NCBI GenBank assembly: GCA_947464275.1
Contig: CANHVU010000003.1
Span: forward strand, 62,001-126,000
Length of the DNA stretch: 64,000 nucleotides
DNA from: Bacteroidota bacterium
GTDB taxonomy: Bacteria > Bacteroidota > Bacteroidia > UKL13-3
Direction of reading: 5' to 3'
The translations under genes were made by a program, and so were the position numbers. A model generated the notes under the pieces. That model searched no databases. It was not told the origin of the DNA and saw only the letters and a program-made list of their open reading frames with translations. Shown one piece after another: positions 7,415 to 13,734 of this stretch (its first letter is position 1; each line of letters starts with the position of its first letter).

Positions 7415-8457
7415 CAGCAATAAAACTTACACAATTTAGCCATGGTGCTGGGTGTGGTTGTAAAATAGCTCCTGATAAATTGGAGCAAATTTTAAGCAAT
7501 AATAAATCAACAGATGTGTTTGCCAATTTATTAGTTGGCAATCAAACCAACGATGATGCAGCAGTGTGGGATTTGGAAAATGGACAAGCATTAATCAGTA
7601 CGGTAGATTTTTTTATGCCTATTGTTGATGATGCTTTTAACTTTGGAAGAATTGCTGCTACCAATGCTTTAAGCGATGTTTATGCCATGGGAGGTAAGCC
7701 AATTTTCGCCAATGCTATTTTGGGCTGGCCTATTGATAAATTGCCTTTGGAGTTGGCTTCAAAAGTAATTGAAGGCGCGCAATCAGTTTGTAAGCAAGCT
7801 AATATTCCTATTGCTGGTGGGCATAGTATTGATAGTTTAGAACCCATGTTTGGTTTGGCGGTAAATGGATTAATTAACAAACAAAATATCAAACAAAACA
7901 GCGGAGCAAAAGCTGGTGATTTATTGTTTTTAACAAAACCTTTAGGAACAGGAATAATTGGAACTGCCATCAAACGTGGTTTGATTGAAGCTGAAGCTCA
8001 TGCTGAAATTTGCATTGAAAGTATGTGTACTTTAAATAGCATTGGTTATGATTTAGCAAAACTCAATGGCGTGTCTGCACTCACTGATGTTACGGGTTTT
8101 GGTCTATTGGGACATTTAATTGAAATGGCAGAAGGAGCTGATTTAACAGCAGAAATAAATTGGAAAAATGTTCCTTATTTTGAGTTTATTGATTCGTATT
8201 TACAAAAAAATATTATACCTGATAACACTTATAGAAATTGGAATGCTTACGAGAAAAAAGTTTTTGGATTAAATGACATGAAAGCATTTCAAATCTTAAA
8301 CGACCCTCAAACAAGTGGAGGTTTATTAATAAGTATTCACCCAGATTCAGTTAATGAATTAGAAGAAATATTTAAAACAAATAACTTATCATTATTTATA
8401 AATCCAATAGGCCGCTTTAAAAATGAAACGCCAAATAGGGTAGAGGTTCAACTTTAA
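7411..8457 (+). CDS. selD: Selenide, water dikinase (Cys form)
   Basis: GAGCGCKI N-terminus, NDDAAVW, ALSDVYAMGG, TDVTGFGLLGH and DPQTSGGLL motifs; ATGA overlap with the upstream ABC gene. Confidence 0.95.
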   Translation: MTAIKLTQFSHGAGCGCKIAPDKLEQILSNNKSTDVFANLLVGNQTNDDAAVWDLENGQALISTVDFFMPIVDDAFNFGRIAATNALSDVYAMGGKPIFANAILGWPIDKLPLELASKVIEGAQSVCKQANIPIAGGHSIDSLEPMFGLAVNGLINKQNIKQNSGAKAGDLLFLTKPLGTGIIGTAIKRGLIEAEAHAEICIESMCTLNSIGYDLAKLNGVSALTDVTGFGLLGHLIEMAEGADLTAEINWKNVPYFEFIDSYLQKNIIPDNTYRNWNAYEKKVFGLNDMKAFQILNDPQTSGGLLISIHPDSVNELEEIFKTNNLSLFINPIGRFKNETPNRVEVQL

Positions 8458-9377
8458 TTAATAATAAATTCAACTCGCCTATTTTGTGAGTTTGAATCAT
8501 TGATTGGTTTTGTTCCTCCAAAACCCTTTGCTGTTAGTCTGTTCTTGTCAATACCTAATTTACAGAGTTGTAGCAATACAGCTAAGGCTCTTTCCTCTGA
8601 TAGTTTTTGGTTTAAATGCGTATCGCCATTAGTATCGGTATGTCCTTCAATACTCACATTTAGCGAGGGAAATCGTTTTAAAAAACTCGCTAACAAAGCC
8701 AATTCTTCTTCAGATTTGCCAATCATTTCACTTGTACTTTGTTTAAATAAAATATTTTTCGGTATGTATTTAGCTATTGTATCGGCAATAGGTTTGTTTA
8801 AAATAGGTTTGATTTGCTTTGAAACAACTGTAATGTTTTTTAATGGAACTATTGAATCCAATTTTATTGGTTTAATTTCTCGTTTATTGGTAGTGATATC
8901 TAGTAGATTATCTTTATTAATAATTTCTATTGAATAAGAACTTGGTTTTTTCCATTTAAATTCCAATTTACCTTCCAACATTCCATTGAAATAATCAATT
9001 CTAATATCATAAATTTTATCTTTTTCAAAATAATAATTAGTAGCATAAAAAACCTTATTATTTAAATTCCATGCATCTATTATTTTTTTATCATTTATCC
9101 ATAACCGAACACCATCATCAACCACAAAGCCAATTTTGTATTTACCCGATTCAGGTGCTACTATTTTTCCAAAACATTTAACTGAAAAATATTCACTATT
9201 TAAGTTTTCTATTTCACTATTATAGTCCCAATAAAAATTTACATCAGGACTATATTTTGTAGTTACTTTAGTATTAAATTCAGCTCCATTATAATACTCA
9301 ATTATAAAACCTTTTTGCCCAAATATTGATGATAATAAAACCAATTTTAGCAATATGATCAAATAAAATTTTAACAT
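8454..9377 (-). CDS. PA14 domain plus OmpA-family C-terminal domain protein
   Basis: Signal peptide; GFIIEYYNG...FVVDDGVRLWINDKKIIDAW (PA14); NVSIEGHTDTNGD...LSEERALAVLLQL (OmpA). Confidence 0.85.
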   Translation of the reverse strand: MLKFYLIILLKLVLLSSIFGQKGFIIEYYNGAEFNTKVTTKYSPDVNFYWDYNSEIENLNSEYFSVKCFGKIVAPESGKYKIGFVVDDGVRLWINDKKIIDAWNLNNKVFYATNYYFEKDKIYDIRIDYFNGMLEGKLEFKWKKPSSYSIEIINKDNLLDITTNKREIKPIKLDSIVPLKNITVVSKQIKPILNKPIADTIAKYIPKNILFKQSTSEMIGKSEEELALLASFLKRFPSLNVSIEGHTDTNGDTHLNQKLSEERALAVLLQLCKLGIDKNRLTAKGFGGTKPINDSNSQNRRVEFIIN

Positions 9378-9378
9378 T

Positions 9379-10053
9379 TTAAAAAATAAAATAGCCTAAT
9401 TTGAATCCTATAAGTGGTGAAAATCCATTAAAAGAATAATCCCAAAAAATATTATCGTAATTCCTTAGATTGTTTAGATTATTGCTTGCTTCAGCATTGG
9501 AATAACTGCTGCCTATCCAGCCATTAAAAACAAATTTACCTTTTGAAAAAGTTTGTCCTAAATACAAGCTGCCTGTGGTTTGAATACAATTTGCATCAAA
9601 TTTACCTATTCTATATTCATAAAAAGTTACACCATCATCAATAAATGAAAAATAACCATAATCATTGAGTACAAAATCAAATCTGTTGTGTTGTAATTCT
9701 CCACCAATAAATAAATGATTGTCAGTCTCAGTTTCAAAGTAATATTTAACACCTACATTAAATCCCTTACCATTTATTTCATCATTGTTTCGTTTGCTTT
9801 GGTCTGCAGTGCTACCTATGCTATTTTCTTTGGATTTACCGCCACCTTGATTTACTAATCCTGTATAATATTGTCCTCCAACAAAGATGTGAATTTTTGA
9901 ATTAATGGAATATTCAAAATCAGCTTTAAATCCATTAATAGCTAGGTATAATGGCTGTATATTGAAAGAGAGTTTTGATGAGTCGAAACTATTTTGAGCA
10001 CAAGCTGAATTAATGATAAGAAATGCTACAATTGCTAAGTATTTTTTCATCAT
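9379..10053 (-). CDS. Putative outer-membrane beta-barrel protein
   Basis: Signal peptide; alternating beta-strand pattern; C-terminal phenylalanine (FKLGYFIF). Confidence 0.6.
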   Translation of the reverse strand: MMKKYLAIVAFLIINSACAQNSFDSSKLSFNIQPLYLAINGFKADFEYSINSKIHIFVGGQYYTGLVNQGGGKSKENSIGSTADQSKRNNDEINGKGFNVGVKYYFETETDNHLFIGGELQHNRFDFVLNDYGYFSFIDDGVTFYEYRIGKFDANCIQTTGSLYLGQTFSKGKFVFNGWIGSSYSNAEASNNLNNLRNYDNIFWDYSFNGFSPLIGFKLGYFIF

Positions 10054-10055
10054 AA

Positions 10056-10814
10056 TTATTGAGCGTTAGTTTGAATTTTACTCATATGCCAAATGCTATC
10101 GTTCACAAAACCAAGTTGGGTTATTCCATCAGCACCAACCAAAATTAACGAAGAGTCAAGGGGGATAATATCATGCGCTGTAATCGTGTAGTTTTTTTTG
10201 CTTACTAAATTACTTGGGTTGGTTGCATCATACCATCTTAATAAATTATCGCATACAAAAAGATTATTGCCTAATAATCCCAATCCTTTTGGTTTGTTTA
10301 AGTTATAAACCGACATGGTAATTGGGTTAGATAAATTTGAAATATCATAGGTTATTAATTGATTAATGCTTCCCCAGCAGTTTCTTGTGGAGAAACTCCC
10401 TTCGCTATTAAGTGTAACAAATGCATAGTTTTTATTAGCTACCACTGGGTCGCATGCCCTGAAATGGGTTATTAAGGCCGTTTGTGATATTAATAAAGGA
10501 TTTGTAACATCATAAATGTGCATTCCGTTTTGTGAGCCAATAAAAATAGTTTTTTCATCGCGAGGAAATATGGTTTCTATATCAAACCCAATATTAGTTG
10601 AGCTAATTTTATTTGGTTTGTTCGCATTTTTTATATCAAATACGTTTAAATTTTGATGATCGACCGTGTAAAGATAATTGCCAATAATAGCAAAGCGAGC
10701 AGTAGAACCTGCCAAACCAACTCCATTACTTCCTAATGAACCTGTTGTGTCACTTTTACTACATGAACTCAATATAATAAATGATATGCTTATAAAAACG
10801 ATGTACTTTTTCAT
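10056..10814 (-). CDS. LVIVD repeat-containing lipoprotein
   Basis: Lipobox LSSCSK; repeated LFV/LYTVD...LNVFDIKNANKP type beta-propeller repeats. Confidence 0.7.
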   Translation of the reverse strand: MKKYIVFISISFIILSSCSKSDTTGSLGSNGVGLAGSTARFAIIGNYLYTVDHQNLNVFDIKNANKPNKISSTNIGFDIETIFPRDEKTIFIGSQNGMHIYDVTNPLLISQTALITHFRACDPVVANKNYAFVTLNSEGSFSTRNCWGSINQLITYDISNLSNPITMSVYNLNKPKGLGLLGNNLFVCDNLLRWYDATNPSNLVSKKNYTITAHDIIPLDSSLILVGADGITQLGFVNDSIWHMSKIQTNAQ

Positions 10815-10816
10815 GA

Positions 10817-11338
10817 CTAATTGGTTTTATTCCATTTTACTAAAACTAAATCTGCAGGCCTGTTTTGTTTTAAATGTTCAGGTTTTACTAATAAATTATC
10901 TGGTGGAACAGGTTCTGGAAAAACATCTACAAGACGCTCTGTAACGTTAATTTTATTAGGATTACTTAAATCAATTGTTACTAAATCTGTTGCGTTGTCA
11001 GCATACAAAAAATTTCCTTTAATTGCCATATCAAAACAGCCTAATATTTTAATAAAACCAATATTATTGGGTGCATATGGATCATGATTATCAATAACAT
11101 GAACACCCACACCTGCCTCACTAATAAATAAGTAATTATCCTTAGTATATATTTTAGCAGGCGTACCTAATGTTCGTGGCGAGCCAATTGATATGGAGTT
11201 TTCTAAATCAACCCTTTTCATAAAAACAGGATCATATTTAGTATACACTATTGGCTTTTCGCACTTAGAACTGCTTAAGCTAATAAATACCAATAAGCCT
11301 ATTGAAAGTTTAACGGATAAATGTTTAAATTTTGGCAT
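10817..11338 (-). CDS. LVIVD repeat-containing lipoprotein
   Basis: Hydrophobic leader then SSKC; NYLFISEAGVGVHVIDNHDPYAP and NFLYADNATDLVTIDLSNPNK repeats. Confidence 0.7.
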   Translation of the reverse strand: MPKFKHLSVKLSIGLLVFISLSSSKCEKPIVYTKYDPVFMKRVDLENSISIGSPRTLGTPAKIYTKDNYLFISEAGVGVHVIDNHDPYAPNNIGFIKILGCFDMAIKGNFLYADNATDLVTIDLSNPNKINVTERLVDVFPEPVPPDNLLVKPEHLKQNRPADLVLVKWNKTN

Positions 11339-11414
11339 GACAATTAATTTTATTAAATCAAATATTGCACAATTATTTTACAAGAACAATTAGGCAGAAA
11401 AAAATTATCAAAAA

Positions 11415-11835: not shown

Positions 11836-13734
11836 TTATTGAATAATTTTAAATTCTGTTCTTCTATTTTTACTTCTGTTTGCTTCCGTACTGTTATCTA
11901 CAAGCGGTTGATTATCGGCATATCCTTTAAATGATAATCTTGTCATTTCAATTTTATTGGTAATTAAATAATCGTAGACAGCTTTTGCACGGTTATTTGA
12001 AAGGATAAGGTTATCTTGTTTTTTACCTTGATTATCGGTATGCCCTCCAATTTCTATTTTCAGTTTTGGATTTACTTGTAAAAATTGCACCAGTTTATCC
12101 AATTCAGTAACTGATTCAGGTTTTAAATCAAATTTTCCTGTTTCAAAAAATATATTCTTTAATACCACTTTGGCCCCTGCTGAAATTGGTATCAATGGCA
12201 CATCTAAAAATAATGGATTGGTATTATTCTGTTCTTTTAAACTAAAGTTTTCGGAATAAAACATATAACCAGCCAAGCTAACATTTAAAGCATAGTTTTT
12301 ATTGCCTTGCAAGCTTAATAAAAATTCCCCAGTGGTTTTATTGGAGCGCGATTCAATTACTGTTTTTTTTGTCGCCAAGTCAATTAATTCTAATTTAGCA
12401 GCTAACTTATTTTTTTTAATTGCATCATAAACTACCCCTTTAACATAACCTGTTTGATCAGGGCGTGCTTGTTTGTATAATTCAAATTGGTAAATATCTA
12501 ATCCGCCAAATCCACCTTTTTTAGCTGATGAAATAAATGCATTAATACCATCGCTGGTAATGCAAAAACTTTGTTCATCTTCATTGGTATTAATTGGATA
12601 GCCAATATTAACAGGTGTTTGCCAACGACCATTAACCGTTCTTTTACTACTGAAAATATCCAAGCCGCCCATTCCGGGGTGTCCGCTACTTACAAAAAAC
12701 AAAGTTTTATCGTCTAAGGCTATAAATGGATATTGTTCCTCACCTTCGGTATTAATTTCTGGCCCTAAGTTTACAGGAGGAGCCCAACGACCATTATTAT
12801 AACTTGTCATCCAAATATCGCTGCCACCAAATCCACCTGGCCTATCACTAGCAAAGTAAACGCTCTTACCGTTAAAAGATACACTTGGCTGAGTTTCCCA
12901 TCTGCGGGTATTAACAGGCGAGCCTAAATTTTTGGGTTCGCTCCATTGATCCCCATTAAGCACACTTAATAAAATATCGCAGCTATTCTCTACTTCGCCA
13001 CAATAGGTATAAAATATATATTGGCCATCAGCACTAATAGAGGCAGTGCCTTCGTTCTTGTCGCTATTAATGGGAGTGCCAATAGATTTAGCCTTTGAGT
13101 AACCTTTGCCGTCTTTTTTACTTATATAAAAATCTTCATTACCAGTTCTTCTATCTCCAATATTTCTTGTAAATAAAAGTGTTTGCCCATCGGCTGTTAG
13201 AACTGGAAAATAGTCATCGTAAATTGAATTTACATTTGAACCTAAACTGATAGGATTATAAGGAACTGGATTTTTTACAGCATTTGCTGCAAAATCTATA
13301 TTTTTTTCTAACTTTAATCCAACTGGCTTGCGGGCAAACCAATCGGGGAACTGAATGAATTTTTTAATATTTATTTGAGCACTATCGTATTTTCCATTTG
13401 CATACATATAACTTGCCATACCTAAATAACTTAATGGAAAATTAGGGTTTATAGTTACGAGTTTATTATATAGCTCTTGTGCCTTTTCTTCTTGTTCATT
13501 TTTTTCATACAAATCGGCTAAAAGCATGTGTGCATCAATGTAATTTGCATCTATTTCAAGTGCTTTTTTACATAATGAAATGGCTTCACCATAATTTTGA
13601 AGAGTAAAGTTTTGAAGTGCTTGATTAAATATTTTATCAGCTTTTTTGTTTTGGGTGGAAGTAAATGGTTTATCCTGCGCTAAAACCGATAAATTCATTA
13701 ATAAAACGAATATAAAAAGGGTGCTTTTAAACAT
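11836..13734 (-). CDS. TPR-PD40/WD40-like-carboxypeptidase regulatory-OmpA domain protein (PorE-like)
   Basis: Signal peptide, N-terminal TPRs, PD40-like repeats (FTRNIGDRRTGNEDFYIS, FASDRPGGFGGSDIWMT), CarboxypepD_reg-like segment, IEIGGHTDNQG OmpA domain. Confidence 0.8.
   Translation of the reverse strand: MFKSTLFIFVLLMNLSVLAQDKPFTSTQNKKADKIFNQALQNFTLQNYGEAISLCKKALEIDANYIDAHMLLADLYEKNEQEEKAQELYNKLVTINPNFPLSYLGMASYMYANGKYDSAQINIKKFIQFPDWFARKPVGLKLEKNIDFAANAVKNPVPYNPISLGSNVNSIYDDYFPVLTADGQTLLFTRNIGDRRTGNEDFYISKKDGKGYSKAKSIGTPINSDKNEGTASISADGQYIFYTYCGEVENSCDILLSVLNGDQWSEPKNLGSPVNTRRWETQPSVSFNGKSVYFASDRPGGFGGSDIWMTSYNNGRWAPPVNLGPEINTEGEEQYPFIALDDKTLFFVSSGHPGMGGLDIFSSKRTVNGRWQTPVNIGYPINTNEDEQSFCITSDGINAFISSAKKGGFGGLDIYQFELYKQARPDQTGYVKGVVYDAIKKNKLAAKLELIDLATKKTVIESRSNKTTGEFLLSLQGNKNYALNVSLAGYMFYSENFSLKEQNNTNPLFLDVPLIPISAGAKVVLKNIFFETGKFDLKPESVTELDKLVQFLQVNPKLKIEIGGHTDNQGKKQDNLILSNNRAKAVYDYLITNKIEMTRLSFKGYADNQPLVDNSTEANRSKNRRTEFKIIQ

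Follow-up and report, generated by a model that had tools for sequence, protein, structure and literature searches.

Gene content of the locus

The window, meaning the whole stretch of 64,000 nucleotides that was analyzed, carries four tightly packed genes on its minus strand, numbered here in their reading direction together with the gap that precedes them.

11339..11414, minus strand: 76-nt gap before ORF1, weak candidate for a promoter region (ATATTTGATTTAA)
10817..11338, minus strand: ORF1, LVIVD N-part lipoprotein, 173 aa (Pfam LVIVD; alignment to single-chain homologs)
10056..10814, minus strand: ORF2, LVIVD C-part lipoprotein, 252 aa (Pfam LVIVD; alignment to single-chain homologs)
9379..10053, minus strand: ORF3, small predicted outer-membrane beta-barrel of family B, 224 aa, C-terminal Phe (AlphaFold, Foldseek)
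8454..9377, minus strand: ORF4, PA14 + OmpA-like peptidoglycan-binding protein, 307 aa (Pfam, motif)

All four ORFs start with ATG and are separated, from ORF1 to ORF4, by 2, 2 and 1 nt, which reproduces the coordinates and the 1–2-nt spacing of the original prediction. ORF1 (25.1 bits) and ORF2 (32.8 bits) both score above the gathering cut-off (20.2) of the LVIVD family in Pfam (PF08309) and are members of it; LVIVD repeats are units of about 42 aa found in cell-surface proteins (PMC2447325). In G000, G036 and G037, the gap 5' of ORF1 has in common ATATTTGATTTAA or a near match of it. Because the 76-nt gap lacks the Bacteroidetes -7 element TAnnTTTG in exact form, it is a weak candidate promoter region.

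At the other end of the locus, the PA14-OmpA gene meets a convergent selD-like gene, and their stop codons lie in the 4 nt that the two genes share (8454-8457). Upstream of ORF1, positions 11836-13734 of the minus strand encode a TPR-PD40-OmpA protein that comes near the families PorE and CHU_0125 (310.5 and 318 bits) but falls short of both NCBIfam cut-offs (600 for PorE) by a wide margin. This gene and a 4HBT thioesterase gene keep their place upstream of the first three genes in G036 and G037. ORF4 itself scores 54.5 bits against the cut-off of 600 for PorE of type IX secretion.

ORF1 and ORF2 as parts of one predicted propeller

Many Bacteroidia encode the LVIVD propeller as one protein of about 420 aa. 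In the same family as the window genome, genera g3, g8 and g12 have single ORFs of 414-457 aa, the N-terminal part of which matches ORF1 and the C-terminal part ORF2, while genera g1 (that of the window), g2, g5, g9 and g11 have two adjacent genes. Among 64 genomes of the family, homologs of ORF1 were detected in 17 and of ORF2 in 18, and the two sets of genomes are almost identical. In genus g8, the single-chain LVIVD gene of one locus (L053, G035:C11) seems to be broken and is intact in G033 and G034.

A single-chain relative (L173) was modelled by AlphaFold, using alignment rows that included read-through split pairs. The model (pLDDT 82, pTM 0.78) has the strands of seven blades; two of these precede and five follow a disordered stretch (180-211) which corresponds to the split point. 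When aligned to it, ORF1 covers residues ~1-175 of the single-chain homologs, that is blades 1-2 and two long flanking strands, and ORF2 covers residues ~205-420, that is blades 3-7. The Foldseek matches to the model are propellers, with the eight-bladed lipoprotein BamB first and the seven-bladed 6-phosphogluconolactonase at low rmsd; as the TM scores are about 0.5, we claim only the fold class. From the alignment and the model, ORF1 and ORF2 are thus predicted to supply the first 2 and the last 5 blades of a single propeller lipoprotein with seven blades, as its N- and C-terminal parts. They had been described as two different LVIVD propellers, a view that we correct here: judged by the single-chain homologs, they are consecutive segments of one.

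Two other explanations for the paired genes were set aside. Independent duplicated propellers are not our main reading, since ORF1 and ORF2 match different, consecutive parts of one homolog. A sequencing frameshift or a pseudogene is rejected on two grounds: ORF2 possesses a start, a signal peptide and a lipobox of its own, and the same split recurs in 113 loci.

Constancy of the split site

In total we read 113 split and 46 single-chain loci; four of the former and one of the latter are duplicates, having been fetched two times. The N-part ends at model position 132-134 of 134 in 89 of the 113 split loci and the C-part starts at model position 1-2 in 105 of them. The single-chain proteins have a linker of ~60 residues at the split point, with which the signal peptide of ORF2 aligns. 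The two halves are adjacent in every one of the 113 split loci. Split pairs account for 77 of the best 80 relatives in named genomes, out of at least 588 that matched, and 75 of these 77 pairs have a spacing of -19 to +20 nt between N-part and C-part. At the level of the class, the N-part is also present in all 27 genomes in which the C-part is a separate match. The window pair shows the same arrangement, with N- and C-part adjacent on one strand and divided between blades 2 and 3.

Residues of both chains are conserved at 96-100% across 153 sequences, split and single: G78, H80 and P90 in ORF1, and E80, H117, C121, D122, P123, C146, C188 and D215 in ORF2. Since three Cys of an exported protein are near-invariant and either chain contributes conserved residues, a putative shared structural or binding site is suggested.

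ORF1 has a signal peptide with a candidate lipobox (SSSK-C) and ORF2 has its own lipobox (ILSS-C). By the rule-of-thumb scan used for these calls, a lipobox is found in 111 of the 113 C-parts and in 89 of the 113 N-parts. Double lipidation is not universal, since many N-parts of Bacteroidales are without the lipobox Cys. The signal for surface-exposed lipoproteins (LES) is K-(D/E)2 or Q-A-(D/E)2 near +2 to +6 of the mature protein (PMC5080379). The window sequences that follow the Cys (C-EKPIVY and C-SKSDTT) lie outside this pattern, and C-SKED in the homologs of G046 and G047 fits it.

As either chain has a signal peptide, and in most cases a lipobox, of its own, the two proteins may also be independent, with ORF2 forming a closed five-bladed propeller and ORF1 a separate two-blade adaptor that merely binds nearby. 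Five-bladed propellers exist, five blades fall in the C-part of the model, and it is possible that the C-part folds alone as such a propeller. However, the single-chain homologs share the conserved residues of both parts, the model has seven blades, and the halves keep one fixed split site and constant adjacency. We therefore consider independent proteins unlikely, and prefer a single propeller divided over two genes.

A small barrel as the third gene

AlphaFold predicts ORF3 to be a beta-barrel (pLDDT 87.3, pTM 0.77), and the nearest solved structures in Foldseek are the small outer-membrane barrels OmpT, CarO, OmpA, OprF and NspA. The Pfam scan of ORF3 gave nothing above threshold. The outer-membrane barrel ending in Phe that had been proposed for this gene is in line with these results, the C-terminal Phe being present.

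Outside a Flavobacteriaceae clade, a family-B barrel lies directly downstream of the pair in 50 of the 62 split loci, at a spacing of -80 to +18 nt in 49 of these. None of the 51 split loci inside that clade has it, which means that the pair can do without the barrel there. In a class-wide search, 8 of the 9 strongest barrel matches adjoin LVIVD genes. The small outer-membrane barrel is the conserved third gene of split loci. In several Flavobacteriaceae loci (L102, L108-L110 and relatives), the barrel-less pair has a constant place downstream of a gene for a DegQ-like protease; in most of them a glyceraldehyde-3-phosphate dehydrogenase-like gene is also found upstream of the pair, these genes being identified by eye. 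Another locus (L054, G050:C19) has a relative of barrel B at ~9590-10107, between an lpxD-like gene and unrelated genes. No LVIVD pair was detected there and a 96-aa ORF alone was called in the matched stretch; this relative is probably decaying after loss of the pair.

Single-chain loci also contain barrels: a B2 or B barrel is present within the locus in 31 of 46, with B2 immediately downstream in 20. We considered whether B and B2 are homologous families and found no support for it (hhalign probability 3.4%). In 14 of the 46 loci, an upstream gene has relatives among proteins for which a barrel domain is predicted, and an ECF sigma-factor gene occurs in the locus in 8 of the 46, many of the fetched flanks being too short to tell. 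In some cases, the single-chain LVIVD gene lies behind an ECF sigma factor gene and a gene of that barrel-domain kind. It is in the single-chain clade that an anti-sigma-like gene context occurs; no such context was found next to split pairs. The sigma-factor context of the single-chain relatives hints at envelope sensing and is no proof for the split form. In three loci of genus g8 (L051-L053), the single-chain LVIVD gene is located between an ECF sigma factor operon and a gldC-like gene, the latter assigned by eye.

ORF4 as a local neighbour

The fusion of PA14 to a peptidoglycan-binding OmpA domain, as first proposed for ORF4, holds: both domains score well above the Pfam threshold (PA14 84 bits; OmpA 68.2 bits against a cut-off of 27.2) and the peptidoglycan-binding motif NxxLSxxRAxxV is intact in the translation (NQKLSEERALAV). 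These domains, and the 1-nt spacing between ORF4 and the barrel gene in the window and in G036, would suit a four-gene machine, with PA14-OmpA as the cell-wall anchor of the propeller-barrel unit, and ORF4 may be co-transcribed with the first three genes in the window.

The neighbourhood of the genes argues against such a machine. The order of genes 1-3 recurs in Tannerellaceae, Dysgonomonadaceae, Prevotellaceae, Sphingobacteriaceae and others, far more than chance would give, which supports a conserved cluster of envelope genes for these three, but PA14-OmpA adjoins the trio only in the window genome and in its very close relative G036. It is absent beside the trio in G037, G051, G009 and G046; in G037, which is of the same genus, an unrelated gene follows the trio. 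Among all the loci read, no LVIVD locus other than those of the window and G036 has a PA14 match. Within the family, close PA14-OmpA relatives exist only in G036, where the gene is adjacent, and in G041, where the copy is on contig L262 beside pirin- and DnaB-like genes. Genomes that have both keep them far apart, as in G343, where PA14-OmpA (locus L272, read by eye) is about 0.5 Mb from the LVIVD gene. Such free-standing proteins have the same domain layout by sequence as ORF4, the difference being that theirs are unlinked to LVIVD genes. ORF4 is a local add-on and no part of the conserved system, and we regard the four-gene machine as very improbable.

Distribution and age of the split

The LVIVD family was found in 97 of 395 Bacteroidia genomes. 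In 27 of the 97, the C- and N-parts are separate matches. Reading of the loci showed at least four others to be split as well (G126, G159, G297, G365), and the rest are mostly single-chain by hand count. Both forms occur together in six genomes (G197, G259, G267, G284, G297 and G401), which suggests that split and single-chain proteins are two subfamilies of long standing, and not a single locus that has switched repeatedly between the forms. In a tree of 153 rows, 5 changes of the split/single label suffice, whereas shuffles require 38, and in a careful tree of 58 rows 2 suffice; the split is therefore old, and rare as an event. One clade for the single-chain form is compatible with the data of the 58-row tree (p-AU 0.163). 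For that reason, we do not take L218, a single chain followed by a B barrel which nests among split ones in the free tree, as proof of re-fusion.

Comparison with known systems

Propellers are usually single chains, because ring closure depends on the first and last blades meeting. In the literature searched, we found nothing on split propellers in Bacteroidota, and the original repeat paper (PMC2447325) was the one relevant match for LVIVD. Both window parts belong to the LVIVD family by score; a divided propeller with a fixed split site and a barrel is the feature of the window type.

BtuG of Bacteroides is a seven-bladed propeller lipoprotein that forms the lid of the barrel BtuB (PMC10404256), and the window likewise combines a seven-bladed propeller lipoprotein, as predicted, with an outer-membrane barrel. 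However, BtuB is a large TonB-dependent transporter with a plug, whereas the window has a predicted two-chain propeller and a plug-less barrel. A lid of the BtuG or SusD type would adjoin a TonB-dependent barrel with a plug; the adjacent 224-aa barrel gave no TonB-receptor match. Sec13 and Seh1 are open propellers completed in trans by a blade of their partner (PMC9646525); they are eukaryotic coat proteins that receive one donated blade, unlike the window propeller, which would be one chain divided 2 + 5.

BamB of E. coli and BamI of B. thetaiotaomicron are outer-membrane propeller lipoproteins associated with barrels (PMC12578637). BamB tops the fold search, LVIVD genes often adjoin a barrel gene and the BAM of B. 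thetaiotaomicron includes BamI (PMC12578637), so the window propeller could be a similar accessory factor in outer-membrane protein assembly. Yet BamB and BamI have eight and six blades, as single chains of the BamA complex, BamI with an Ig-like domain (PMC12578637), whereas we find seven blades in the model and two chains. In addition, the BAM subunits of F. johnsoniae (BamA, D, G, H, M and P) are not described as propellers (PMC12611786), and a patchy distribution (97/395 Bacteroidia) is unlike that of a core assembly factor. A BAM-accessory role thus appears quite improbable.

The locus is therefore of a known kind, an outer-membrane propeller lipoprotein with a barrel, in a two-gene, phylum-wide divided form that was not found in the literature searched. 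The idea of an undescribed system stands for the pair with its barrel, which is absent from that literature, and fails for the fourth gene, which lies outside the conserved unit.

Proposed mechanism and significance

We propose that ORF1 and ORF2 would be exported separately and would assemble in trans into one closed seven-bladed beta-propeller, to which ORF1 would contribute 2 blades and ORF2 5 blades. Two lipid anchors would hold this composite propeller at the outer membrane, where it may dock on the small ORF3 barrel. The docked propeller would be a putative binding or sensing head using conserved His, Cys and Asp from both chains, which is the weakest step. Based on sequence comparison and models, we find this proposal as a whole somewhat probable; what has been demonstrated in its support is that the pair is homologous to single-chain proteins, is divided at one fixed site, is always adjacent and has a conserved barrel partner, and that the predicted fold of the single-chain form is seven-bladed. 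A bolder version is a long shot: the site of conserved His, Cys and Asp would be complete only when the two separately lipidated proteins meet, so that assembly would report lipoprotein sorting or ligand, with the link to sigma factors seen in single-chain relatives.

The split is kept at one site across much of the phylum, and both pieces usually have lipoprotein signals, which suggests that the split itself is useful. Thanks to the tight spacing of the genes, cultured Flavobacteriaceae and Parabacteroides offer an easy test of this. For the window, PA14-OmpA is removed from the proposed machine and the two propellers become one; the family, which is large and without known function, gains the small barrel as a defined partner, together with a conserved site that is likewise defined.
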